Assembly (NCBI GenBank): GCA_030606285.1
Contig: JAUWGS010000013.1
Span: forward strand, 1 to 55,667
DNA: 55,667 nucleotides
From: Planctomycetales bacterium
Lineage (GTDB): Bacteria; 4484-113
Reading direction: 5' to 3'
A model generated the notes under the pieces. That model ran no database searches, was not told where the DNA came from, and saw only the letters and a list, made by a program, of their open reading frames with translations. Every line of letters begins with the position of its first letter. Position 1 is the first letter of the stretch. Position numbers and translations under genes: made by a program. Positions 429-13,024 of this stretch are shown here, one piece after another.

Positions 429-540
429 AGAAGCGGGGAGGGCAATTCGTGAACTTGTGCGCCGAAGGCGCATAAATGCTCCAGAGGCGCATAAACCCCT
501 ACAGAAGAGTAAGAAATCCCGATGTGCGACAATACGCGGG
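429..540 (+). promoter_or_regulatory. Upstream region of hyuA with a small palindrome and a direct repeat
   Basis: TGCGCC-gaa-GGCGCA forms a perfect 6-bp hairpin at about 458-472. The decamer GGCGCATAAA occurs twice, at 467-476 and 486-495, 19 bases apart. GACAAT at 528-533 lies 7 bases before the hyuA ATG and could be a -10 element; no convincing -35 is seen and there is no Shine-Dalgarno. The repeat could be a regulator site, but this is inference from position and symmetry only. Confidence 0.35.
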
Positions 541-2607
541 ATGGATAAGCGCGCGCTACGCATCGGTGTGGACACGGGCGGGACGTTTACCGATCTGGTG
601 CTCAACCCCGGTGAGGGAATGCCGCTTATTGCCCACAAGCTGCTCTCGACGCCCGACGATCCCGCGCGCGCGGTGCTGCAGGGATTAAACGCTATCCTGC
701 AAAAGATAGGCGAAGCCGGCGGCGATGATTTCACCGTGGTGCACGGCTCGACCGTGGCGACCAATGCGCTGCTCGAAGGCAAGGGCGCGCGCGCCGCGTT
801 CGTCACGACGAAGGGATTCGAGGACACGCTGCTAATCGGGCGGCAGAACCGGCTTGAGCTTTACGCGCTGGAGCCCGTGAGGCCTGAACCGCCGATTGCG
901 CGTGAAGCCGCGCTGGGCGTGGATGAACGGGTGCTGCACGACGGCAGCGTGCTGAAGCCGCTACAGCAGGACGACATTGAGGGCATCACCCGGCGCGTCC
1001 GTGAGCTGGGCGTGGATTCGGTTGCGATAAGCTTTTTGCACAGCTACGCCAACGGCGAGCACGAGCGGATGCTGGCACGGGCTTTGAAAGATGCGCTGCC
1101 GGAATTGCATCTCACCGTCTCGCACGAGCTGTTGCCGGAATTTAGGGAATACGAGCGCGCCGCCACGTGCGTCATAAACGCGGTTGTCGCGCCGCCGATG
1201 GTGGGCTACCTGAAGCGGCTGGACAGCGGAATCGGCGGCGGGCGGCTGCGAATTATGGCGTCAGCGGGCGGGAGTCTGCCCGTGGACGTTGTGAACCGCG
1301 CACCCGTCAGCACCATCCTCTCGGGGCCGGCGGGGGGGGTGGTTGGAGCGCTGGCGGTGTCGCAGGCGGCGGGCGCAGACCGCATCATCACGTTCGATAT
1401 GGGCGGCACGAGCACCGACGTATCGCTCTGCGACGGTGACATATCGCGCACCACCGAAAGCGAAATCGGCGGGCTGCCATTGCGCCTGCCGATGATTGAC
1501 ATACACACAGTCGGCGCGGGCGGCGGGTCGGTGGCGTGGCTCGACGAAGGCGGAGCGCTGCGCGTGGGGCCGCAGTCAATGGGGGCCGACCCCGGCCCGG
1601 CCTGCTACGGCCGCCAGAACGAGCCTTTCAGCGCCACGGTAACCGACGCCCACCTCGTGCTGGGGCACCTTTCGGCGAAACATGCGCTGGGCAATGACCT
1701 GACGCTGGATGCGGACGCAGCGCGCTCCGCGGTGCAGCGCACAGCCGATGCAACCGGTCTCACGCTGGAGGAGACGGCCCTGGGCATTCTCCGCGTAGCC
1801 GAGGCCACGATGGCGCGGGCCATCCGGCGCATTTCCGTCGAGCGGGGTTATGACCCCAGAGATTTTTCGCTGGTTTCTTTCGGTGGCGCGGGCGGACTGC
1901 ACGCCGCGCGCCTGGCCGAACACCTGGGTATAGCGACGGTTCTGGTGCCGCGCGAACCGGGCCTGCTGTCCGCCGTCGGGATGTTGCGTGCCGCGCCGCT
2001 GCACACGTTCTCCCAGGGCGTGATGCTGCGCGTGCCGCCGGAAGAAGCCAGGAAAGGAGCGCTGCTAAGGCATTACGCGATACGGCAGACACTGGATGAA
2101 CTACAGGCAAAGGCGGATGACGCGTTGCGAAGTGAAGGCATCCCGGAAGACGAGCGCGTGTACTCGCGCAGCCTCGACGTGCGCTACGCCGGGCAGTCCT
2201 ACGAACTCACCATTCCCTTAGATGATGGCGATCCGGCCAAGGCGTTCGCGATGCGGCATCAGCGGCTGTACGGATACACCGCGCCGGAGAAGCCGCTGGA
2301 GATAGTGACCGTGCGGTTGCAGGCCGGCGGAACCGAGCAGCCGCTGTCGCTTCCGCGCCTGCCCGAACGGCGCGGCGCGATACCGGTTGAGCTCGTGGAA
2401 ACGGCATCCATCTGGGCGGACGGCAAAGAGACGATGTGCGCCCGCCTTCACCGCGACGAGCTGCTCTTCGGCGACAGCCTGGACGGGCCGGTAATCATTG
2501 ACGAGTACTCGGCGACCACGCTCGTTCCGCACGGCTGGTGCTTCGAGGTGAACGCGCTGGGGCAGCTCCTGCTCCGCAAGCCGCAGGATTCGGAGGTCTA
2601 CCCGTGA
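541..2607 (+). CDS. hyuA: Hydantoinase/oxoprolinase subunit A (HyuA family)
   Basis: This 688-residue protein belongs to the ATP-dependent hydantoinase / 5-oxoprolinase / acetone carboxylase beta family. These enzymes work with HyuB to open cyclic amides, using ATP. The ASKHA-type phosphate-binding signature DTGGTFTD is at residues 11-18, HGSTVATNALLEG at about 68-80, and the second nucleotide-binding part (SGPAGGVVGA, then FDMGGTSTD) at about 265-300. The reading frame is open back to 457, but the family begins just before the DTGGTFTD motif, so ATG 541 is chosen. It has no Shine-Dalgarno, only GACAAT 7 bases upstream, suggesting a leaderless transcript. The stop overlaps the hyuB start by four bases (GTGA). 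The exact substrate (N-methylhydantoin, oxoproline or other) cannot be told from sequence. Confidence 0.9.
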   Translation: MDKRALRIGVDTGGTFTDLVLNPGEGMPLIAHKLLSTPDDPARAVLQGLNAILQKIGEAGGDDFTVVHGSTVATNALLEGKGARAAFVTTKGFEDTLLIGRQNRLELYALEPVRPEPPIAREAALGVDERVLHDGSVLKPLQQDDIEGITRRVRELGVDSVAISFLHSYANGEHERMLARALKDALPELHLTVSHELLPEFREYERAATCVINAVVAPPMVGYLKRLDSGIGGGRLRIMASAGGSLPVDVVNRAPVSTILSGPAGGVVGALAVSQAAGADRIITFDMGGTSTDVSLCDGDISRTTESEIGGLPLRLPMIDIHTVGAGGGSVAWLDEGGALRVGPQSMGADPGPACYGRQNEPFSATVTDAHLVLGHLSAKHALGNDLTLDADAARSAVQRTADATGLTLEETALGILRVAEATMARAIRRISVERGYDPRDFSLVSFGGAGGLHAARLAEHLGIATVLVPREPGLLSAVGMLRAAPLHTFSQGVMLRVPPEEARKGALLRHYAIRQTLDELQAKADDALRSEGIPEDERVYSRSLDVRYAGQSYELTIPLDDGDPAKAFAMRHQRLYGYTAPEKPLEIVTVRLQAGGTEQPLSLPRLPERRGAIPVELVETASIWADGKETMCARLHRDELLFGDSLDGPVIIDEYSATTLVPHGWCFEVNALGQLLLRKPQDSEVYP

Positions 2608-4196
2608 CGAAGCAAGTGCACCCGCCGTGCGACGCCGTCGAGCTGGAGATATTCAAGCACCTGTTCGCTGCGGTCGCCGAAGAAATGGGCGCGAGGCTGA
2701 TGCGCTCGGCGTACTCTCCCAACATCAAAGAGCGCCGCGATTTCTCCTGCGCGCTCTTCGACGCCGACGGAAAGATGCTGGCGCAGGCGGAACACATACC
2801 GGTGCATCTCGGCTCGGCGCCGGCGTCCGTGCAGGCGGTGCTCGAAGCGTTTACGCCTGCGTCAATGCAGCCAAATGACCGCTTCATCCTCAACGACCCT
2901 TTTGCGGGCGGAACGCATCTTCCCGACATAACCGTGCTAGCGCCGTGCGTGCTGCCGGGCGAGGCGGCGCCGCGATTCTTCGTCGCCAACCGGGCGCACC
3001 ACGCGGACATTGGCGGCAGCACTCCCGGCTCGATGCCCATCAGCACCTCGATTGACGAAGAAGGACTGCGCATCCCGCCAACGAAGCTCAACAAAGACAC
3101 TGTTAACTGGGTATGCGCGCATTCGCGCACGCCCGAGGAGCGCCGGGGCGATTTGCAGGCGCAGCTCGCCGCGCTGCAGGTGGGAGTGCTTCGGCTTCAC
3201 GAGCTGTGCCGACGTTACGGCGCGGAACTGGTGAGCCGGCGCGGGAATGAGCTGACGGACTACACCGAACAGATAATCCGCAAGACTGTGTCGGCGATAC
3301 CGGATGGCGCGTACAGCTTCGAAGACTTGCTGGACGACGACGGGCACGGCACGACGGACATCGCGATTCGCTGCAAGCTCACGATATCAGGCGACTCAGC
3401 GGTCGTTGACTTCACAGCGTCCGACGATCAGGTGCGCGGGCCGGTGAACGCGGTCAGCGCGATAACGTCGTCGGCGGTGAACTACGTGTTCCGCTGTCTT
3501 GCGCCAGCGGACATTCCCAGCAACGCGGGCATCATGCGCCCGGTTACAGTCATCACCCGGCCCGGAAGCGTGCTGGATGCGCTGCCACCGGCGGCGGTTG
3601 CGGGCGGCAACGTGGAAACGAGCCAGCGTATTGTGGACGTGCTGCTGGGAGCGCTAGCGCAGGCGTTGCCGGACAGGATTCCAGCGGCTTCCAGCGGCAC
3701 GATGAACAACTTAAGCATTGGCGGCATCGACCCGCGCCACGATGCGGCTTATGCTTACTACGAAACCATCGGCGGAGGAGCGGGAGCAGGGCCCGCGCAT
3801 GACGGGGCTTCAGGCTTGCACACGCATATGACGAACACGCGCAACACTCCGGTCGAAGCCCTAGAGCACGCCTACCCCATTCGCATCGAAGCCTATTCCA
3901 TCAGGCAGGGCTCAGGCGGTGTGGGGAAGCAGCGCGGCGGTGATGGCATAATACGCCGGTTCGCTTTCAGCGAGAAGGCTGAAGTGACGCTGCTGGCTGA
4001 CCGGCGGCGCCATTCTCCCTACGGGCTTCAGGGCGGCGAGCCGGGCATATCGGGTGCTGACATACTCATCAGTTCTGATGGAACGGTGAAACCTCTGCCC
4101 GCCAAGTGCACCATCCGCGTCGAGCCGGGCCAGAAGCTGGAGATCGCCACTCCCGGCGGCGGCGGCTGGGGTGATGCGGAATCCGAGCCTAGTTGA
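2604..4196 (+). CDS. hyuB: Hydantoinase/oxoprolinase subunit B (HyuB family)
   Basis: This 530-residue protein is the usual partner of HyuA; the two together form the ATP-dependent amidohydrolase. Family features seen include the N-terminal block AVAEEMGARLMRSAYSPNIKERRDFSCALFD, the LNDPFAGGTHLPDIT motif (about residues 94-108), NRAHHADIGGSTPGSMP, and the glycine-rich C-terminal end TPGGGGWGD. The GTG at 2604 is chosen because it sits in a GTGA overlap with the hyuA stop, has GGAGG upstream, and places the family's first conserved block near residue 25; the longer in-frame ATG at 2538 would overlap hyuA by 70 bases. Translational coupling with hyuA is likely. The length is normal for the family. 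Confidence 0.9.
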   Translation: MTKQVHPPCDAVELEIFKHLFAAVAEEMGARLMRSAYSPNIKERRDFSCALFDADGKMLAQAEHIPVHLGSAPASVQAVLEAFTPASMQPNDRFILNDPFAGGTHLPDITVLAPCVLPGEAAPRFFVANRAHHADIGGSTPGSMPISTSIDEEGLRIPPTKLNKDTVNWVCAHSRTPEERRGDLQAQLAALQVGVLRLHELCRRYGAELVSRRGNELTDYTEQIIRKTVSAIPDGAYSFEDLLDDDGHGTTDIAIRCKLTISGDSAVVDFTASDDQVRGPVNAVSAITSSAVNYVFRCLAPADIPSNAGIMRPVTVITRPGSVLDALPPAAVAGGNVETSQRIVDVLLGALAQALPDRIPAASSGTMNNLSIGGIDPRHDAAYAYYETIGGGAGAGPAHDGASGLHTHMTNTRNTPVEALEHAYPIRIEAYSIRQGSGGVGKQRGGDGIIRRFAFSEKAEVTLLADRRRHSPYGLQGGEPGISGADILISSDGTVKPLPAKCTIRVEPGQKLEIATPGGGGWGDAESEPS

Positions 4197-4298: not shown

Positions 4299-4355
4299 TA
4301 ATATAGCGAGCTTGCAGTGTGCGAGCTTGACTATCGAGTAAAGGACGTGATTTTC

Positions 4356-4670
4356 GTGGCAAACGGTAGGGATCATACGATGACAGGGAAGTCCGGGTTG
4401 CGGTACGGCGGTACGCTGAATCGCCTTAGTGCGAATTTCAACGATGTAGCATGTGTGTACGTTATTCTCACTAGTGAGCACAAAACGGTGTATGTGGGTG
4501 AGACGGGAGAATTGGCGACGCGGCTCCAGAATCATCACAAGAGAAGCTGTTGGAGTGAGAAGGGGGCGTCGTACGTGTTTGTACATCTTCAGCCACTGTC
4601 AACCGAGGCCAACAGGCAGCAAGTCGAGGCTGACATTCTCGCTAACTACCATTTCCCCTGCAACGACTAG
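4356..4670 (+). CDS. Small GIY-YIG-type nuclease-domain protein
   Basis: The 104-residue product is almost entirely one GIY-YIG-like domain. ACVYVILTS stands for the GIY strand, VYVGETG for YIG, the following Arg (ELATRLQNHH) for the catalytic Arg, and QQVEADILANY supplies the late conserved Glu. Such domains cut DNA in homing endonucleases, UvrC and some mobile-element or housekeeping proteins; the partner or target of this one is unknown. GTG 4356 is chosen because AAGGA lies 10 bases upstream. Other in-frame starts are GTG 4317 and ATG 4380. It stands alone with its own promoter. Confidence 0.6.
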   Translation: MANGRDHTMTGKSGLRYGGTLNRLSANFNDVACVYVILTSEHKTVYVGETGELATRLQNHHKRSCWSEKGASYVFVHLQPLSTEANRQQVEADILANYHFPCND

Positions 4671-5409: not shown

Positions 5410-5868
5410 CTACGGCGCGGAGAAGAGGGCGCGCCCCTGTGCATCATAAAGGCGAAGACCCGGTGTGCCGTCAGCGAGCATGGCGAGCACGGCGCGTGGT
5501 TTGCCCTGAGCGTCATAGAGGTCAAGAGCCGGTGTGCCGTCAGCAACCAGGCCGAGCCCGGCGCGCGGCTTGCCCTGAGCGTCATAGAGACTAAGACCCG
5601 TGCCGTCAGGGGACACGTCTAGCGCGGCGCGTTGCTTGCCCTGAACGTCATAGAGACGAAGACCCACTGAGCCGTCAGGGAGCACGGCGAGAAAGGCGCG
5701 TGTTGTGCTCTGGTCGTCATAAAGGCGAAGACCCGCTGAGCCGTCAGGGAGCATAGCGAGCGCGGCGCGCATATTATCCTTATCATCCACGAGCACGAAT
5801 TTCTTCGCACGGACTTCATCGAGAATACCGCCTTGCGGATCAGCCGACTGAGAGGATTTGATAGTCAT
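5410..5868 (-). CDS. LFSAP-type 23-residue repeat protein A (cytoplasmic form)
   Basis: The 152-residue protein starts at ATG 5868 with AGGAGG seven bases upstream. It has no signal peptide: after about 17 polar residues comes the cap DEVRAKKFVLVDD, then five copies of a 23-residue unit of the form DAQGKPRAVLAMLADGTPGLRLY (one copy is 22 residues), and the closing DAQGRALFSAP. Each unit alternates two short hydrophobic strands with two turn motifs (PDGS/ADGT and DxQG), so a stack of beta-hairpins is the likely fold. The same cap, repeat and LFSAP end recur in the proteins at 5958-6551 and 10912-11541. It lies just downstream of the 6551 gene on the same strand. Function is unknown. Confidence 0.7.
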   Translation of the reverse strand: MTIKSSQSADPQGGILDEVRAKKFVLVDDKDNMRAALAMLPDGSAGLRLYDDQSTTRAFLAVLPDGSVGLRLYDVQGKQRAALDVSPDGTGLSLYDAQGKPRAGLGLVADGTPALDLYDAQGKPRAVLAMLADGTPGLRLYDAQGRALFSAP

Positions 5869-5957
5869 GATGCCTCCTTCTAATGACTGTATGCATGCGG
5901 TGAGATGCCGCTTTCACACTCTCACCAGCGTCGAGACGTCGTATGTAAACTGACCTG

Positions 5958-6551
5958 CTACGGCGCGGAGAAGAGGGAACGCCCTTCCGCGTCCATGAGG
6001 CCAAGAACCGGTGTGCCGTCAGGGAGCACGCCGAGCGCGGCGCGTGGCTCGCCCTGAGCGTCCATGAGGCTAAGACCCGGCGTGCCGTCAGCGAGCACGG
6101 CGAGCCCGGCGCGTGGCTCGCCCTGAGCGTCAGAGAGGCCAAGACCCGGCGAGCCGTCAGCGAGCACGGCGAGCACGGCGCATGGTTTGCCCTGAGCGTC
6201 AGAGAGGTCAAGACGCGGTGAGCCGTCAGGGGACACTCCGAGTATGACGCGTACATTCCCCTGAGCGTCATGGAGGCCAAGAGCCGGTGAGCCGTCAGGG
6301 AGCACCGTGAGCATTGCGCGTATCTCGCCCTGAGCGTCAGTGAAGCAAAGATCCGGTGAGCCGTCAGGGTCCACGCCAAACTCGCCGCGTGTGTTGCCGT
6401 CATTGTCTACTAGGCGAAACTCTTTTGCGCTAACCGTCTCAAGGACATCAGGCTGCCCTTCTGCTGGCGGGGAACTCTTGATACACGCGCCGAGCCAGAG
6501 GATTGAAAGCACTAGAAAGACCGCCCAGATTCTCCAGAAAAGCCCCATCAT
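5958..6551 (-). CDS. LFSAP-type 23-residue repeat lipoprotein B
   Basis: The 197-residue protein has a signal peptide with a good lipobox (ILWLGAC, Cys23), a short Pro/Glu linker, the cap ETVSAKEFRLVDN, six 23-residue units such as DAQGEIRAMLTVLPDGSPALGLH, and the ending DAEGRSLFSAP. It should be an envelope lipoprotein made of beta-hairpin repeats. The start ATG 6551 has GGAGG seven bases upstream; a second ATG follows immediately and could also serve. A strong promoter lies at 6588-6616. It is a paralogue of the neighbours A (5410-5868) and C (10912-11541), with 69-bp tandem DNA repeats that make several reading frames appear open. Confidence 0.75.
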   Translation of the reverse strand: MMGLFWRIWAVFLVLSILWLGACIKSSPPAEGQPDVLETVSAKEFRLVDNDGNTRGEFGVDPDGSPDLCFTDAQGEIRAMLTVLPDGSPALGLHDAQGNVRVILGVSPDGSPRLDLSDAQGKPCAVLAVLADGSPGLGLSDAQGEPRAGLAVLADGTPGLSLMDAQGEPRAALGVLPDGTPVLGLMDAEGRSLFSAP

Positions 6552-6587
6552 CGTCTTACCTCCATTCCATAGGTATAAGCTGTGCGG

Positions 6588-6616
6588 AGTATATGAGACG
6601 TCTGCCGAAAGGTCAA
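6588..6616 (-). promoter_or_regulatory. Promoter of the LFSAP lipoprotein B gene (TTGACC-17-TATACT)
   Basis: On the minus strand TTGACC (6616-6611) and TATACT (6593-6588) are exactly 17 bases apart, close to the sigma-70 consensus. The start codon follows after about 36 bases, with a normal Shine-Dalgarno, so this is a leadered transcript. Confidence 0.7.
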
Positions 6617-6737
6617 TCCACTGGAAGTAGTTCTCACGAGTTCGCCGACGTTCGTCGATGGCACTACCACGGTCTGAACAAGCCTGCCCCTAATTCCCGA
6701 AACCCCCATGGAGGCGTGGGGGGTATGTGGTGGGGTA

Positions 6738-6812
6738 TGGTTGCGGGGACAGGATTCGAACCTGTGACCTCCAGGTTATGAGCCTGGCGAGCTACCACCG
6801 CTCCACCCCGCA
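6738..6812 (-). tRNA. Initiator-type tRNA-Met (CAT), with encoded CCA
   Basis: The 75-base cloverleaf reads TGCGGGG acceptor, GAGC/GCTC D stem, anticodon arm CCAGG-CTCATAA-CCTGG, and TTCGAAT T loop, followed by A73 and an encoded CCA. The GAGC/GCTC D stem with A11:T24 is typical of initiators rather than elongator Met tRNAs. It is unusual in having T1:A72 paired instead of a mismatch, A29:T41 as the first of the usual three G:C pairs of the anticodon stem, and G where A14 is nearly universal, with a short D loop. TATACT five bases upstream of the mature 5' end (6823-6818), with TTGATT 16 bases before it, gives a likely promoter. Confidence 0.85.
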
Positions 6813-7230
6813 ACACCAGTATAACACGATGAGTAACCGAATCAAGAGCCGTCCCACCTGTGGAATGCGCGCAGCCTTCCGCCGGGGAAGCCGTGTCGTC
6901 CTTAATGGGTAGGACAGGCTTCAGCCCGTCTCTTAGGCGTAACGAAAGTACTCGGGGGAGGGCGATTCGTGAATCGCCCCTACAAGAAGGAATACGGCGG
7001 GGCACACTTCGGCTTCGCTCAGCGTCTACGACAGGTCCCCGCCCTACAGGGAAGACGCCCAAACGAGTAGGCTGGGCGCGCGAATCTTGAAGCGATACGT
7101 CAGTCGCAGGACACCCAGTCCTGAACAGGCGGGGCGCGGAGACCCCGCCCTACAAATATATGGCACGCCATTGCCTGGCCTATGGAGCAGCCAGATGCCT
7201 CTATCCCGTTACATCAGCTAGAATGTTGAC
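6813..7230. repeat. Gene-free stretch holding a cluster of palindromic repeat modules
   Basis: No credible gene is seen here. At least three modules have inverted arms and often end in CCCTAC: GGGCGATTC-gt-GAATCGCCC (6960-6979), GGCGGGG...CCCCGCC (6996-7043), and GGCGGGG-8 nt-CCCCGCC (7128-7149). A related piece with CAGGCTTCAGCCCGTC lies near 6912. Similar elements occur at 10824-10843 and in degenerate form near 13030-13095 and 430-450. The bshA -10 (TAGAAT, 7219-7224) is at the right end. Confidence 0.6.
7219..7230 (+). promoter_or_regulatory. -10 element directly before bshA, likely leaderless
   Basis: TAGAAT (7219-7224) is followed after six bases by the GTG start at 7231. No Shine-Dalgarno can be seen and the -35 is not convincing. 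Confidence 0.45.
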
Positions 7231-8388
7231 GTGCGCGATTCGGTAATCGTCGTTTCGTTGCCGACCTTCGGGGGGAGCGGAATAGTTGCGACCGAGCTGG
7301 GCGTCGCCATGGCGCGCCGGGGCTGGGAGGTGCACTTCATTTCCGCCTCGCCGCCGGTGAGACTCGCGCTTTACACAAGCGACCCCGATATTTGCGGGCG
7401 CGTCAGCTTCCACCAGGTCGCGACCCAGGTCTACGCAATGTTCCACCACCAGCCGTACACGCTTGCGCTGGCGTCTAAGATCGCGCAGGTCGCAAAGCGC
7501 TACGAGGTGCCCATCATCCATGCGCACTACGCCATCCCGCATACTATTGCCGCGCATCTAGCGCGCGAAATGCTGGGAGGGCAAACGTCAGTGGTCACGA
7601 CGCTTCACGGCACCGATATCACCATTGTGGGGCTTGATCCTTCGTACCGCGACATAGTCACTTACGCGCTGAATGCCAGCGACGCGGTGACGGCGGTCTC
7701 GCAGTTTCTCCTGGAAGCCACGCGCCGGGAATTCCCGTACGATGGTGAAATAGGCGTTATCCCGAACTTCGTTGCGCCCGAGGTGTTCCATACCGACCAG
7801 CCGGAGGCGGCGGTAATCCGCGAGCGCTACGCTCCCGAGGGAAAAGCGCTGCTGATTCACGTCAGCAACTACCGGACGGTCAAGCGCGCGCCCGTAGCGT
7901 GCGAGATTTTCGCAGCCGTGCGCGGCGAAGCTCCGGCGCATCTGATGATGATCGGCGAAGGGCCCGACCGGGCGAGAACGGAAGAATGCGCCGAGCGTCT
8001 GGGAGTTTCTAAAGACGTAACGTTCATTGACAGCACGCTTGAGCTTCCACCGTATCTTGCAGCCGCTGACCTTATGCTGATGCCGAGCCAATCCGAGAGT
8101 TTCGGCCTTGCGGCGCTCGAAGCCATGGCGTGCGGCACGCCGGTCGTTGCCAGCGCCATCGGCGGATTGCCCGAGGTCATTGACGATGGAGTGGACGGTT
8201 CTCTGCTGCCGCCGGATGACACCAAAGCAATGGCGGAAGCTGTGCTGGCGCTGCTCAACGACCGTTCGCGCCTGGAGCGGATGTCGCAGGCCGCCGCCGA
8301 AAAGCCGCACGCACGCTTCCCGCGCGATGAACAGGTAGACAAGTACCTGGAGGTTTACAGCCGGGCGCGACAACGGCGCTCTCATTGA
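7231..8388 (+). CDS. bshA: BshA-like GT4 glycosyltransferase (GlcNAc-malate synthase)
   Basis: The 385-residue protein matches BshA, which joins N-acetylglucosamine from UDP-GlcNAc to L-malate in the first step of bacillithiol synthesis. The N-terminal GT-B half shows PTFGGSGIVATELG (GGSG at residues 14-17), typical of BshA, followed by HFISASPP and HAHYAIPHTIAAHLAR. The C-terminal half has the GT4 signature SQSESFGLAALEAMACGTPVVAS with the EX7E pair near residues 290-300, and GLPEVIDDG. Length agrees with the family (about 375-385). No bshB or bshC is in the window. The start is GTG with a -10 six bases upstream. It could be a related malate- or sugar-modifying GT4 enzyme, but the BshA fit is good. 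Confidence 0.8.
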   Translation: MRDSVIVVSLPTFGGSGIVATELGVAMARRGWEVHFISASPPVRLALYTSDPDICGRVSFHQVATQVYAMFHHQPYTLALASKIAQVAKRYEVPIIHAHYAIPHTIAAHLAREMLGGQTSVVTTLHGTDITIVGLDPSYRDIVTYALNASDAVTAVSQFLLEATRREFPYDGEIGVIPNFVAPEVFHTDQPEAAVIRERYAPEGKALLIHVSNYRTVKRAPVACEIFAAVRGEAPAHLMMIGEGPDRARTEECAERLGVSKDVTFIDSTLELPPYLAAADLMLMPSQSESFGLAALEAMACGTPVVASAIGGLPEVIDDGVDGSLLPPDDTKAMAEAVLALLNDRSRLERMSQAAAEKPHARFPRDEQVDKYLEVYSRARQRRSH

Positions 8389-8413
8389 GAGGATGCTCCT
8401 CGCGCTAAGCCCC

Positions 8414-9400
8414 CTACTCCATCTTCGCCAGCTTCTCGCCGGCTTCCATCCGGTGGCCGGCAAGATAATCGCAAACTTCCATCGCCCGCCGACCTTCGGG
8501 CTGCACTTCGTGAACTACTACTGTGCCGCCGTCTCCCGCGACAATCTCGAAGCTGCGCTTGCTCACGCTAATAACGGTTCCAGGCGCTGCATCCGACGCC
8601 TTCCGGGTGCCCAATGACGCGCGCAGTATCTTCAGGCGCGAACCATCGGCATCCTGGCAGACCGCGCCCGGCTCCGGCGCCATCGCGCGGATAAGATTCA
8701 CCAGGCGCGCTGCTTCCCAGGAAAAGTCGATGTGCGTATCGGCGGGCTCGAGCATTCCGGTGCAGCTTACGTCATCGTCGCTCTGTGGTTCGTAGCGCAC
8801 CGTTCCATCGCTGATCCGGCGCAGCGCATCATTCGCGCATTCAGCAGCAAGAACCGCGAGCTTTTCGCGTAGCGTGCCGAAGTTATCCTCTGGGTCAATC
8901 GCCTGCTCCCGGCACAGCATCACCGGCCCGCAGTCGGCCTCCCGCACCATTTTCATCACGCAAACCGCCGTCTTCTCCCATCCCTCCATCAGCGCCTGCC
9001 GGATGGGCGAGGGCCCGCGCAGCCGGGGCAAGGGGCTGGGATGCAGGCACAGCGGGTGCTCGGTCAGCTTCAGGTAGCTTGACGGCAGGATCATCCCGAA
9101 GCTCGCGAGTATGTATGCGTCAGGCTCGATTGCGCGAATGCGCGCCTTCAGCTCCTCATTGTAGGCAAGCTTCTCCGGTTCCGCGAGTTCAACCGCCGGA
9201 TGCTCCTCGCGGACGTATTTGGCGATTGGAGTGGGCTCCAGCAGCTTTTTGCGACCCTTTGGCGCAGGCGCACGGGTGACGACCAGCGGCAATTCGCAGC
9301 GGTCGCCGGAAAGAAGAGACGTTAGAGTGGGAAGCCCAAACTCCGTTGAGCTCCAGAATACGACGCGAAGCGGCCTGGCGGCTTTAGTCTCCTGTGACAT
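8414..9400 (-). CDS. fmt: Methionyl-tRNA formyltransferase, with altered catalytic motif
   Basis: The 328-residue protein aligns with Fmt, which formylates Met on initiator tRNA using 10-formyl-THF. The N-terminal hydrolase fold (LRVVFWSSTEFGLPTL), the loop HPSPLPRLRGPSPI (about 120-133), Asp156 in ADCG and the C-terminal OB-type domain are all present. The catalytic Asn-x-His of the family (Asn106/His108 in E. coli) reads Cys118-Leu-His120 here, so the Asn seems to be replaced. ATG 9400 is chosen: it overlaps the DUF1232 stop by 17 bases and starts 10 residues before the first conserved strand; the open frame extends further upstream to 9469. GGAGG abuts the ATG, which is closer than usual. 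It is last in the ispH-DUF1232-fmt operon. Confidence 0.85.
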   Translation of the reverse strand: MSQETKAARPLRVVFWSSTEFGLPTLTSLLSGDRCELPLVVTRAPAPKGRKKLLEPTPIAKYVREEHPAVELAEPEKLAYNEELKARIRAIEPDAYILASFGMILPSSYLKLTEHPLCLHPSPLPRLRGPSPIRQALMEGWEKTAVCVMKMVREADCGPVMLCREQAIDPEDNFGTLREKLAVLAAECANDALRRISDGTVRYEPQSDDDVSCTGMLEPADTHIDFSWEAARLVNLIRAMAPEPGAVCQDADGSRLKILRASLGTRKASDAAPGTVISVSKRSFEIVAGDGGTVVVHEVQPEGRRAMEVCDYLAGHRMEAGEKLAKME

Positions 9401-9872
9401 CCTCCGTATCTTCGCGCTGGGATCCCAGGGACTCTGCGGCATCCTTGTACTTCTCCGCCATAGCCCCATAGCGCTCGCTCACCTTTTCGTAGACATCGCC
9501 GAAAGTCTCCCGGAACGCCTCCACCCCTTTCTTGACGTTGAAAAACACTTGCTCCTTCGGGTCGCCCCCGAGTATGCGCGAGAGCAGATCAGGCCCGAGC
9601 TGGCGCAGGAACATCTGCATTATCAGCAGGGCGAATATCGCATCGTCCACGAATCCGATACCGGTGATGAAGTCGGGCACGATGTCCAGCGGCGAGAAGA
9701 AGTAGATAATGCCTGCGAGCGCGTAAAGCTTCATCCAGCCCGAGACCTTCGGGTGGGTCATTCCCACAGCGAACGCCCGGATGAGCCGGGGCAGGCCCTT
9801 CAAGTATGGCTCGACGCTCGTCAGGTCGTATTCGCCGAGGTCGTTGCCCAGAATCTTGAGATTTATCTTCAC
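9384..9872 (-). CDS. DUF1232 (YkvA-like) membrane protein
   Basis: The 162-residue protein carries the DUF1232 signature YFFSPLDIVPDFITGIGFVDDAIF (about residues 57-80), with flanking hydrophobic helices that suggest membrane association, and a charged helical C-terminal tail. The function of the family is unknown. The start is a GTG at 9872. The AAGGAG of its ribosome-binding site overlaps the end of ispH, and its 3' end overlaps fmt, so it is the middle gene of a three-gene operon. Confidence 0.75.
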   Translation of the reverse strand: MKINLKILGNDLGEYDLTSVEPYLKGLPRLIRAFAVGMTHPKVSGWMKLYALAGIIYFFSPLDIVPDFITGIGFVDDAIFALLIMQMFLRQLGPDLLSRILGGDPKEQVFFNVKKGVEAFRETFGDVYEKVSERYGAMAEKYKDAAESLGSQREDTEDVTGD

Positions 9873-9882
9873 GAACGGTCTT

Positions 9883-10764
9883 TTACTCCTTCAAACCGGC
9901 GAGTTCGCGCACCTTCGCCGCGATCCCTTCTATCGTCCAGTCGGGGGTCGAGGCCCCGGCGGTAATGCCGACTTCCAGCGTTTCCCAGCGCTTGCCGCCT
10001 TCGGGCGGGAACCAGGAGGGGTCAATCTCGCCGACGCAACTGAGGAAGTGCGACCGTGGGTTCTCCTCCTGGCACACCTCCAGCAAGCGGCGTGAATTGC
10101 TGGAATGCGCATCCCCGACGACCAGGATTATATCACAGCGCTTCGCCACATCCCGGCTCGCAGACTGGTTCTCATCGGTGTGCGGACAGATGGTGTCGAG
10201 CGCTTCCACGCTGCCTTCGCCGTACTTATCGACCAGCGCGGCGCGCACTCGCTCATAGCGGTGGCGCTCGATGGTCGTCTGCTCCACAACACCGACGCTT
10301 GCGTAATCCGGCAGCTTTTGCGCTTCTTCAGGCTCCGTGACCACGTGCGGATTTTTTAGATACGATACGAGCCCCTGCACTTCGGGATGATCCTTCTTGC
10401 CCACGACAATGACTGCCGGATGGCGCTGCTGAAGGCCCACCGCTTTCTCGCGTACCGATTTGACGACGCCGCAGGTGAGGTCAACTATCTGGTTGTTTGC
10501 CGCAACGAGGAGGTCAATTACCTCCTTCGCCTCGCCGTGGGTGCGAATGATGACGCGGGCGTCGCTCAGCGCTTCGGGGCTCTTCGCTTGCAGTATTCCC
10601 GCTTCGGAGATGCGCGCCACAACCTGCTCGTTGTGCACCAGGTCTCCCAGCATATAGGTTTCGCCGGCTTTGTCCCCCAGCTGCTGTGCGAGCGCCATCG
10701 TGGCGTCAAACGCCCGCCGCACCCCTCGGCAAAATCCCATCCGCTCGGCGAAGATGATTTGCAC
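9883..10764 (-). CDS. ispH: 4-hydroxy-3-methylbut-2-enyl diphosphate reductase (IspH)
   Basis: The 293-residue protein is IspH, the [4Fe-4S] enzyme that makes IPP and DMAPP in the last step of the MEP isoprenoid pathway. The three cluster cysteines are Cys12 (MGFCRGV), Cys98 (DLTCGVV) and Cys193 (DTICPHT). Substrate-binding His residues are seen at HNEQ (His44), RTHG (His76) and KDHPE (His126). Length is typical of the compact bacterial form. The start is GTG 10764; no Shine-Dalgarno is seen, but TAAACT lies eight bases upstream, so the operon ispH-DUF1232-fmt may have a leaderless first gene. Confidence 0.95.
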   Translation of the reverse strand: MQIIFAERMGFCRGVRRAFDATMALAQQLGDKAGETYMLGDLVHNEQVVARISEAGILQAKSPEALSDARVIIRTHGEAKEVIDLLVAANNQIVDLTCGVVKSVREKAVGLQQRHPAVIVVGKKDHPEVQGLVSYLKNPHVVTEPEEAQKLPDYASVGVVEQTTIERHRYERVRAALVDKYGEGSVEALDTICPHTDENQSASRDVAKRCDIILVVGDAHSSNSRRLLEVCQEENPRSHFLSCVGEIDPSWFPPEGGKRWETLEVGITAGASTPDWTIEGIAAKVRELAGLKE

Positions 10765-10823
10765 CGGCGATTAGTTTAGCATTTGGGGGTGTGGTTCGCA
10801 GCGCTTGGCACTGTCTTCTGTAG

Positions 10824-10843
10824 GGGCACGGCATGCCGTGCCC
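10824..10843. repeat. 20-bp perfect palindrome of the dispersed repeat family
   Basis: GGGCACGGCA is followed directly by its reverse complement TGCCGTGCCC. The element is preceded by GTAG, like the CCCTAC-ended modules at 6960-7150. It lies between the divergent ispH and LFSAP-C genes. Confidence 0.7.
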
Positions 10844-10853
10844 GCGCCCCGCC

Positions 10854-10882
10854 TTTACTATGCGGGTAAGTAGGGCTACACT
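10854..10882 (+). promoter_or_regulatory. Promoter of the LFSAP-C gene (TTTACT-17-TACACT)
   Basis: TTTACT (10854-10859) and TACACT (10877-10882) are 17 bases apart; the ATG follows after 29 bases with AAGGGGGG as Shine-Dalgarno. Confidence 0.6.
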
Positions 10883-10911
10883 TAGACAAGACCACCTAAG
10901 GGGGGTAAAAG

Positions 10912-11541
10912 ATGGAGTCACAAGATATTCGTGCTTTGCAATCAAGGCTTGACCGGCTGGAAGCAAGGAACCGCTTGCTGGCCTGCGCGCTGCTGGTGCT
11001 GCTGGGCCTATGCGCCCTGCTGCTCGTTCTCTCGGCGTGCGCGCCCTCTTCGGTGCAGGAAGTTGTAAGGGCAAAAGCCTTTGAGGTCGTGGACGCCAGC
11101 GGGGAGATAAGAGCGGGGCTTGGCGTACTCTCTGACGGCTCGACGGGGCTAGCGCTCTATGATGCGAGCGGGGAGATAAGAGCGATGCTTGCCACAGACC
11201 CTGACGGCTCGCCGGTGCTGGGGCTCTTGGACGCCAGCGGGGAGCCAAGAGTGACGCTTGCCACACTCCCTGACGGCTCGTCGGGGCTGACGCTCTCTGA
11301 CGCCAGCGGGGAGATAAGAGCGACGCTTAGCATACTCGCTGACGGCTCGCCGGTGCTAACACTCTCTGACGCCCGCGGGGAGATAAGAGCGGGGCTTGGC
11401 ACAGTCGGTGACGGCACGCCGTTGCTATCGCTCCATGATGCGAGCGGGGCGCCAAGAGCGTGGCTTGGCACGCTCCCTGATGGCACGGCGCGGCTAGAGC
11501 TCTTTGACGCCAGCGGGAACGTGTTGTTCTCCGCGCCGTAA
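10912..11541 (+). CDS. LFSAP-type 23-residue repeat protein C, membrane-anchored
   Basis: The 209-residue protein starts with a short charged heptad-like helix (SRLDRLEARN), a hydrophobic segment (about residues 22-41) ending in LVLSAC, which could be a lipobox or just the end of a membrane anchor. Then come the cap EVVRAKAFEVVDASG, six 23-residue units such as DASGEIRAMLATDPDGSPVLGLL, and the closing DASGNVLFSAP. Cap, repeat phase and end match proteins A and B near 5.4-6.5 kb, but the turn is DASGE instead of DAQGE, so C has diverged from the A/B pair. The start has AAGGGGGG upstream. It converges with the AlbA_2 gene. Function is unknown. Confidence 0.75.
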   Translation: MESQDIRALQSRLDRLEARNRLLACALLVLLGLCALLLVLSACAPSSVQEVVRAKAFEVVDASGEIRAGLGVLSDGSTGLALYDASGEIRAMLATDPDGSPVLGLLDASGEPRVTLATLPDGSSGLTLSDASGEIRATLSILADGSPVLTLSDARGEIRAGLGTVGDGTPLLSLHDASGAPRAWLGTLPDGTARLELFDASGNVLFSAP

Positions 11542-11565: not shown

Positions 11566-12963
11566 TCAGTCTATGGCCTTCTCGTACGCCAGCTGGTAGA
11601 AGCCCGGCGGTGGCCTATAGAGGTTGAATACGCTGTCCCAAAGCTCACCGACAAGTTGAGGGAGGACATCGGGCACATTCACCTCTGGCAGGTCAGCCGA
11701 AATCTCAGCGGTTCCGGTCCAAGTATGGCTCATGCTCTGGTTATGTAGGACAGAATAGCCGAAAGCGCGTTGGTGAGTGAGTATTCTCCTGTCCTCAAGG
11801 TCGTCGAAGCGTAGGGAAAACTGCAAGCGGTCTACCGTCCTACCCAAGACCGCTAGTTCTCTGGAGTATCGCAGTGCATGGATGACAAACTCAGCTAGGT
11901 CGCGAGTGTGTAGCGAAGCAAGGAAAACGCGAGGCTCGGTGCCCCATTCCGGTAGTCTATTCTGACGGTGCATTACTGCGGTGTCAGCGTCTTCGAAGTA
12001 AGACCGGGACGCATGGAAGCGTCCCAAGGTGTCGGCTGCCCAGAAATCGACATACAGGCCTATGCGGGCAGGATAGAATGCCCTGTATAGCTTGGCGCCG
12101 TCGCGGTTCAGCGTTGTGAGGCCACTCTCGTCCGGGTAAGCAGTATCGCCAATAGGCAGGGCCGCTTCCCGCACAACGGAGTTGTCAAGAACTTGGCGGA
12201 GATTCCGCACGCTAAGTTCTGTGGAGAGCGGTGGTACTGGGGCCACGGTGAACGCCCAACGCCCAAGACTCGGAGCAGGAAGTTTATCCAAGCTCTTCTG
12301 CCTCAGCTCCTCATATAGATTGTCTGCCAACGTCAGGAAATCCTGTAAGTCGTCAGCGCCCGCTACAACAGCGTGTATAGGTACTCCGGCGATGATGTTT
12401 CTTATGGCAGAGAGCAACTCGTCCCCCGTAGATGCGAGGCATTTTGTGATAACTGGCCGCCATTCATCGGGGGTGAACGGCTCTTCTGTTTTCGGACCAG
12501 GCTTCCTGATGTATATGCGCCCCTTGTCGCATACGTCAGGTACGTGCCTTATGCAAACGACTGGCGTGCTCCAGATCGACGGAACATAGACAGCCGGGAA
12601 TCGTTGGTGGTCTCCAGGTAGTTTGAGCAACATTACGTTTGGCACTGGATTCATGAAATGGGCAAGGGCGTCGCTCAATCTCGTCTGTTCCCATGTGTCC
12701 AGGTCCTGTGTGCTGATAGTCTGCTCGCTGTAACCTAGGCCGCTATCGTTCTTGCGAAAACCACAGATGATGTAGCCTCCTCCCGAATTGGCGAGGGCCA
12801 TTGCGGCCTTGGCAGTCGCCGAAAACCCCTCCTCTTTCTTCCCCATCCGGCAGAAAGACTTGATCTCCACGTCCAAACTCTCGGGCTCCCACCTAGGTTC
12901 ACCTAGCCTACCGGCTATGAACTCCAACCGGCTCAAGTGTCTATCCAACGATTCTTCAGCCAT
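11566..12963 (-). CDS. AlbA_2 (Schlafen-type) domain protein, unknown C-terminal part
   Basis: The 465-residue protein begins with an AlbA_2-like domain: VEIKSFCRMGKKEEGFSATAKAAMALANSGGGYIICGF (about residues 32-69), followed by RIYIRKPGP at about 165. AlbA_2 domains bind nucleotide or nucleic acid and occur in transcription regulators and in defence-related proteins. The remaining 280 residues (helical linker, then a strand-rich domain with DFWAADTLGRFHASRSYFED) match nothing I know. ATG 12963 is preferred because MAEESLDRHLSRLEF fits a natural start; ATG 12984 is seven codons upstream and neither has a good Shine-Dalgarno. The gene stands alone and converges with LFSAP-C. Confidence 0.6.
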   Translation of the reverse strand: MAEESLDRHLSRLEFIAGRLGEPRWEPESLDVEIKSFCRMGKKEEGFSATAKAAMALANSGGGYIICGFRKNDSGLGYSEQTISTQDLDTWEQTRLSDALAHFMNPVPNVMLLKLPGDHQRFPAVYVPSIWSTPVVCIRHVPDVCDKGRIYIRKPGPKTEEPFTPDEWRPVITKCLASTGDELLSAIRNIIAGVPIHAVVAGADDLQDFLTLADNLYEELRQKSLDKLPAPSLGRWAFTVAPVPPLSTELSVRNLRQVLDNSVVREAALPIGDTAYPDESGLTTLNRDGAKLYRAFYPARIGLYVDFWAADTLGRFHASRSYFEDADTAVMHRQNRLPEWGTEPRVFLASLHTRDLAEFVIHALRYSRELAVLGRTVDRLQFSLRFDDLEDRRILTHQRAFGYSVLHNQSMSHTWTGTAEISADLPEVNVPDVLPQLVGELWDSVFNLYRPPPGFYQLAYEKAID

Positions 12964-13024
12964 GACAACAGCATACCACGACATAGCGAATTGGGACGGA
13001 GCAGGGCTTGACCTTGGAATTCAA

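Follow-up and report, generated by a model that had tools for sequence, protein, structure and literature searches.

The stretch of 55,667 nucleotides at positions 1 to 55,667 (forward strand) of contig JAUWGS010000013.1 of a Planctomycetales bacterium (GTDB lineage Bacteria; 4484-113; assembly GCA_030606285.1), hereafter called the window, raises the question of what is made by three open reading frames (ORFs) at 5410-5868, 5958-6551 and 10912-11541. Their products, P1, P2 and P3, had been described in a sequence-only reading as one family of 23-residue β-hairpin repeat proteins. The analysis presented here points, at a confidence just short of even, to a family of bacterial single-layer β-sheet proteins, unnamed and widespread, that are tethered to the membrane and carry a diversified binding face in this genome.

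The three ORFs proved to be real and their translations as described. That they form one family is beyond chance, as a tblastn search with P3 finds the other two at 57-58% identity (expect value, E, 2e-48 and 3e-25). P1 (152 amino acids, minus strand) is composed of a cap, five hairpin units and an LFSAP end; P2 (197 amino acids, minus strand) of a membrane helix, a cap, six units and the same end; and P3 (209 amino acids, plus strand) of an N-terminal helix, a cap, six units (11092-11505) and again LFSAP. The unit has the form D-A-x-G-x-x-R-A-x-L-x-V-x-P-D-G-[ST]-P-x-L-x-L-x, and the cap (DEVRAKKFVLVD in P1, ETVSAKEFRLVD in P2 and EVVRAKAFEVVD in P3) is itself half a unit, F-x-[LV]-V-D. The five or six units and the identical end had thus been read correctly. 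The strict period of 23 residues applies to all units of P2 and P3 and to four of the five of P1, the remaining one being of 22 residues, and the supposedly common cap motif xxVxAKxFxLVD applies to P1 and P2, P3 having FEVVD instead of FxLVD. At the N-terminus of P2 the membrane helix contains a lipobox, LGAC (residues 20-23), and in P3 a 41-residue helix is at first coiled-coil-like and then forms a membrane segment that ends with LSAC. P1, the second gene of the tandem pair P2+P1, is without an N-terminal membrane segment; its ATG is preceded by AAGGAGG, a ribosome-binding-site-like stretch of its own. The membrane anchor goes beyond the sequence-only reading, as do the strands, the two-faced pattern and the diversification described below.

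A resemblance to OspA, a single-layer sheet of 23-residue hairpins, had been suggested, with either a flat sheet or a solenoid as the outcome. Whole P3 compared with the PDB matched an engineered OspA (3eex, E 3e-6), its repeats alone aligned with chains of engineered OspA in the same register (E 2.6e-6), and the family profile matched engineered OspA at E 7.1e-13. With permuted or reversed units as controls, OspA was absent from the matches even at E 10. Structure prediction yielded regular hairpins for both P2 and P3: the AlphaFold2 models show an N-terminal helix and then 14 strands up to the C-terminus, the helix comprising residues 2-42 in P3 (predicted local distance difference test, pLDDT, 88.0; predicted template-modelling score, pTM, 0.62) and residues 2-25 in P2 (pLDDT 82.2, pTM 0.63). 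Engineered OspA was the top PDB match in Foldseek (E 2.5e-10), and VIA-align superposed it at Z 12.1 (root-mean-square deviation, rmsd, 6.5; 151 aligned) and Z 12.5 (rmsd 4.4; 151 aligned), followed by radial-spoke proteins, MORN1 and CPAP at Z 9-11. For repeat proteins a Z below about 13 may mean merely a common arrangement; the likeness to OspA is specific because of the sequence match, not because of Z alone. A search of viral folds returned mostly MORN proteins of giant viruses. Sequence match and models together support a predicted OspA-like single-layer sheet of hairpins for the family, and of the two shapes proposed the flat sheet is favoured, a solenoid being unsupported over it.

The profile search proposed in the sequence-only reading was carried out with a 13-row profile (A5; cutoff E 1e-6) over 385 sampled genomes, and relatives were found in 31 of them, the own genome included, under 23 family labels. 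Two of ten genomes of the own phylum match, again counting the own. The phylum of genome G036 stands out with 67 matching genomes among 195 at 1e-15; 64 of these 67 have a single match apiece and share the family label f31, which, with genomes of 6 to 14 Mb, probably corresponds to the Myxococcaceae. Named relatives occur in Candidatus (Ca.) Zipacnadum vermilionense (the one locus that a scan with a narrower alignment yielded) and on plasmids of Ca. Manganitrophus. Among 34 diverse rows (32 ORFs from 31 loci plus the Ca. Zipacnadum and Ca. Manganitrophus members), for which start codons and the end pattern were chosen by the analyst, a strong membrane segment is present in 27, a coiled-coil-like RLExLE motif in 16 and both in 14, and 15 have an end like [FW]x(A/V/T)P, of which LFSAP is one case. 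The number of units varies from 4 to 17 across the family. As the sequence-only reading had supposed, this is not a known, characterised domain. Pfam, NCBIfam and PADLOC gave nothing above cutoff for P1-P3 and PHROGs, which has no cutoff, gave a best E of 0.0079; on these results an ordinary domain hidden in the repeats was rejected. No Pfam or NCBIfam model exists for the family, and none is common to more than two of 31 members. A phage origin was rejected, as no relative was found in viral contigs (one scan, P3 as query) or phage records. No paper on such a family was found in the open-access literature, subscription journals being mostly outside this search.

The own genome (2.3 Mb in 36 contigs, 91% complete) contains ten members, P1-P3 and seven genes elsewhere, as found by tblastn with P3. 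Nine end with LFSAP and the tenth with LFMAP. A hydrophobic N-terminal segment is read from the sequence in seven (P2, P3, C30b, C4a, C4b, C23 and C26b). Two tandem pairs are present, P2+P1 on contig 10 and C30b+C30a on contig 30, and in both the downstream gene is without a membrane segment. Upstream DNA is common to members within two subgroups (122 bases at 88.5% for P3 and C26a, 157 bases at 92% for C23 and C4a), which indicates that the copies arose by gene duplication. The framework identity of units is 0.743 within genes and 0.633 between genes, a difference of 0.110 compared with a permutation maximum of 0.048. Moreover, when a unit is compared with those of a sister gene, the most similar one generally has another rank, so that unit order is not preserved between paralogues. 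Together these two features imply concerted evolution of the units. C26a (L019:5283-5921), the closest paralogue of P3, has the coiled-coil-like start without the membrane segment, and may represent a cytoplasmic version of the family beside the tethered one.

In the model of P3 the strands of one unit comprise residues 89-95 and 101-106, connected by five-residue turns. Judged from the sequence, PDG would form a type I turn with a G1 bulge and DAxG a four-residue turn. These turn rules suggest that in every unit positions 8, 10, 12, 18, 20 and 22 lie on one face of the sheet and positions 7, 9, 11, 13, 19, 21 and 23 on the other. Conservation alternates in the same way, since in the units of P3 positions 8, 10, 12, 18, 20 and 22 are conserved and hydrophobic and positions 9, 11, 13, 19, 21 and 23 hypervariable. 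Over the 60 units of the own genome the conserved face consists for 80% of AVILMFW and for 13% of P, with no charged residue among 360, whereas the variable face contains every kind of residue, in 59 distinct six-residue sets. In 135 units of the 34 diverse rows, position 8 is hydrophobic in 87% and charged in 0%, position 12 is hydrophobic in 84% and charged in 4%, and positions 9, 11, 13, 19, 21 and 23 are hydrophobic in 21-47%. The regular expressions by which units were picked demand hydrophobic residues at positions 10, 20 and 22, so that positions 8 and 12 (and 18) are the sole independent evidence for the greasy face. Both faces of the CPAP TCP domain and of OspA are in contact with water; the greasy face of the family therefore suggests packing on another copy.

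Selection on the variable face was studied on a tree of the units by counting the changes at each codon base. Which positions were to count as variable and which as conserved had been decided after viewing the own-genome data, and the unrelated genome G056, with 17 units of 22 residues, served as the independent test. In 57 units of nine own genes (the divergent C26b dropped) the variable face showed 114, 126 and 56 changes at bases 1, 2 and 3 (p 2.6e-8 for the third-base deficit), and with C26b included (60 units) 118, 133 and 67 (p 1.0e-6). Conserved-face codons of the own genes gave 45, 18 and 47 changes and turn codons 54, 45 and 64. The same positions in G056 gave 28, 33 and 9 (p 8.3e-5), so that an excess of amino-acid-changing substitutions is present in two unrelated genomes. 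Gene by gene, the excess was significant in five of the nine own genes (P2, P3, C30a, C26a and C23). A codon model was fitted over a grid of omega to 25 units of the four most uniform of the ten own genes and to the 17 units of G056. It placed omega of the variable face at 15, the edge of the grid, or higher in the own genome (twice the log-likelihood difference, 2dlnL, 62 against omega 1) and at about 8 in G056 (2dlnL 21); the framework classes gave omega 0.7 to 1.5, indistinguishable from 1. Relaxed constraint cannot raise first- and second-base change above third-base change, which leaves diversifying selection on an exposed, binding-type face as the remaining simple reading. By contrast, 29 orthologues of the G036 phylum (30 less the divergent L113) gave a dN/dS of 0.40 at variable and 0.19 at conserved positions. 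The face thus matters in genomes with a single conserved copy and diversifies where copies have multiplied.

These observations could be connected as follows. As the N-terminus, short and rich in arginine, should remain inside, the sheet would lie on the outer side of the cytoplasmic boundary. The hydrophobic faces of at least two copies would pack on each other, helped by the N-terminal helix, with the variable faces outward, and the outward face would bind some ligand: the pattern of the variable face points to selection for diversity and hence to a binding surface. In the own genome, duplication, exchange of units and diversifying selection may have expanded a single binder into some ten binders that differ in their faces, and in f31 the face of the single copy would be fixed on one partner. 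It is possible, although doubtful, that this amounts to a bacterial recognition repertoire built on flat sheets, in which about ten genes exchange and recopy their units, the greasy face assembles the sheet and the other face is selected to differ in nearly every unit. No description of such a structural class of variable receptors was found in the open-access literature.

Several observations weigh against a membrane-tethered sheet with a diversified binding face. The alignments behind the two models are shallow (6 and 5 rows). P1, C30a and C26a are without an N-terminal hydrophobic segment and so are some relatives, so that the location of the members is not uniform. The CPAP TCP domain exposes both of its faces, which makes a free, unpacked sheet possible in principle. 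No conserved neighbour was present across the 31 loci or within f31. The base-change excess was not significant in P1 (p 0.41), C30b (0.36), C4a (0.14) and C4b (0.07). Beyond G056, six more genomes were analysed, none with a significant excess (Zip, p 0.14; G193, 0.19; G128, 0.24; G129, 0.28; Mang, 0.85; G002, 0.58); the units of these six look old, with third bases near saturation. Besides, recombination between units can inflate omega.

A passive scaffold or spacer, extended at the membrane and varying on a face that has no specific ligand, either by lax constraint or because unlike units slip or aggregate less, is an unlikely though serious alternative. Sheets of the OspA type need no hydrophobic core for their stability, many substitutions are tolerated in the engineered versions, and a unit number of anything between 4 and 17 and a gene context that is not conserved would suit a spacer. 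Lax constraint would, however, at most equalize the change at first and second bases with that at the third, not produce a twofold excess or an omega of 8-15, and it does not agree with the conservation of the face in f31. Selection against slippage predicts that adjacent units differ more than distant ones of the same gene, which they do not (identity 0.203 and 0.169, respectively), and was rejected. The same diversifying signal would be expected if the exposed face were the target of a phage, a predator or a host and its diversity aided escape rather than recognition, and many surface antigens, among which OspA as a surface lipoprotein may be counted, behave in this manner. This is quite unlikely for the present family: a strong membrane segment in 27 of 34 suggests that most members are tethered, perhaps to the inner membrane, where a phage receptor of a cell with two membranes would not usually be placed, several are without any export signal, and ten different simultaneous copies suit a repertoire better than the escape of a single antigen.

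Two further explanations have little probability. New bases might be written into fixed codons by targeted mutagenesis of the type of diversity-generating retroelements, since in the strand-A variable codons of P3 and C30a bases 1 and 2 differ in 53-62% of the comparisons and base 3 in none. A search for a reverse transcriptase (PF00078), positive in 3 of 14 control genomes, was negative for the own genome at E 0.01 and for G056 at E 0.001; one could have been missed, because the genomes are 91% (own) and 88% (G056) complete. The first and second bases of the variable codons show no enrichment in adenine (125 of 720 in the own genome, 43 of 204 in G056; no search for a template repeat was made), and such mutagenesis is considered extremely improbable. 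A role as periplasmic accessory of metal efflux is brought to mind by the Ca. Manganitrophus plasmid records (L029, L030 and L154), in all three of which a member stands after the gene for a CusA/CzcA efflux transporter and before that for an ArsR/SmtB regulator; two of the records also have annotated mer genes in the vicinity. Nevertheless, the three loci are closely alike and probably reflect one event, the reading frame of the CP114558 copy is broken, nothing similar recurs among the neighbours elsewhere (best 25 of 116 families), and the conserved residues, turn aspartates aside, are not obvious metal ligands, which makes this role very unlikely.

The family was also compared with known systems of related build. 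With the Lyme-disease protein OspA of Borrelia and the engineered PSAMs it shares the 23-residue hairpin unit, in register, and the flat single-layer sheet, predicted here. It differs in having no globular end domains, one uniformly hydrophobic face, up to 17 natural units and an N-terminal helix. OspA exposes both faces of its sheet to water. The OspA family of Pfam, Lipoprotein_1, gave no match for P1-P3 at E up to 10 and none for 31 members at 0.01. MORN proteins, the repeat of which is about 23 residues long, likewise have hairpins in an open sheet (MORN1, Z 9.3-9.9), maybe as a common arrangement only; their motif was not recognised in the family, one of 31 members matching MORN_2 (E 0.0075) and none any other MORN model. 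RHS/YD repeats share hairpin strips and a YD-like signature; they form a closed shell, and the Pfam RHS_repeat match, obtained for P3 only, is weak and below the cutoff (20.9 versus 22 bits). The TCP/G-box domain of CPAP/Sas-4 is a natural open single sheet (Z 9.6), which has been likened to PSAMs and described as hydrated on both faces (PMC3776556). It is unlike the family in being eukaryotic, in these hydrated faces and in binding a proline-rich motif, and no sequence match was found. The nearest precedent for the evolutionary pattern is provided by the repeats (WD, ANK, TPR) of fungal NOD-like receptors, which are reported to be near-identical and subject to concerted evolution with positive selection at a few hypervariable positions (PMC4986451). 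The repeats of these receptors have other folds and are joined to NTPase and effector domains, whereas no Pfam domain was found in the members here.

The OspA-type unit has served as an engineering scaffold. To our knowledge, few solved structures are of natural proteins that consist of hardly more than a flat sheet of the OspA kind, and a whole family from nature, its two faces unlike and its units numbering 4 to 17, provides natural templates for such engineering. If the variable face binds, bacteria would possess a recognition repertoire built on a fold to which no such role is known to belong. The single conserved copy in the large-genome bacteria of f31 makes the function accessible to a deletion test.

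As regards the gene neighbourhoods, for which the sequence-only reading had proposed a comparison, neighbours differ at almost every locus except the three alike Manganitrophus loci. When 62 of the 114 listed neighbour ORFs were scanned with Pfam, no family recurred beyond three members, the gene calls being mechanical and some neighbours spurious. In genome G397 two overlapping short members stand in tandem (L152:5513-6465) after a gene for what we take to be a DnaA-like ATPase. In the window, a tRNA-Met gene (6738-6812, minus strand) is located just upstream of P2, and between them lies a promoter-like site (6588-6616, minus strand; TTGACC, 17, TATACT), a pattern match only, at 10 of 12 positions. 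The ORF at 11566-12984, convergent with P3, encodes a Schlafen AlbA_2 domain protein (E 1.7e-6), and that at 4317-4670 a small GIY-YIG domain protein (Pfam E 1.6e-5) with weak PADLOC matches to the candidate-defence models PDC-S14 and UzuA. A subunit pair of the hydantoinase/caprolactamase type occupies 457-4196, the first subunit matching caprolactamase subunit alpha at E 1e-147, yet below cutoff. Finally, a BshA homologue at 7231-8388 (TIGR03999, 438.9 bits) suggests bacillithiol synthesis.

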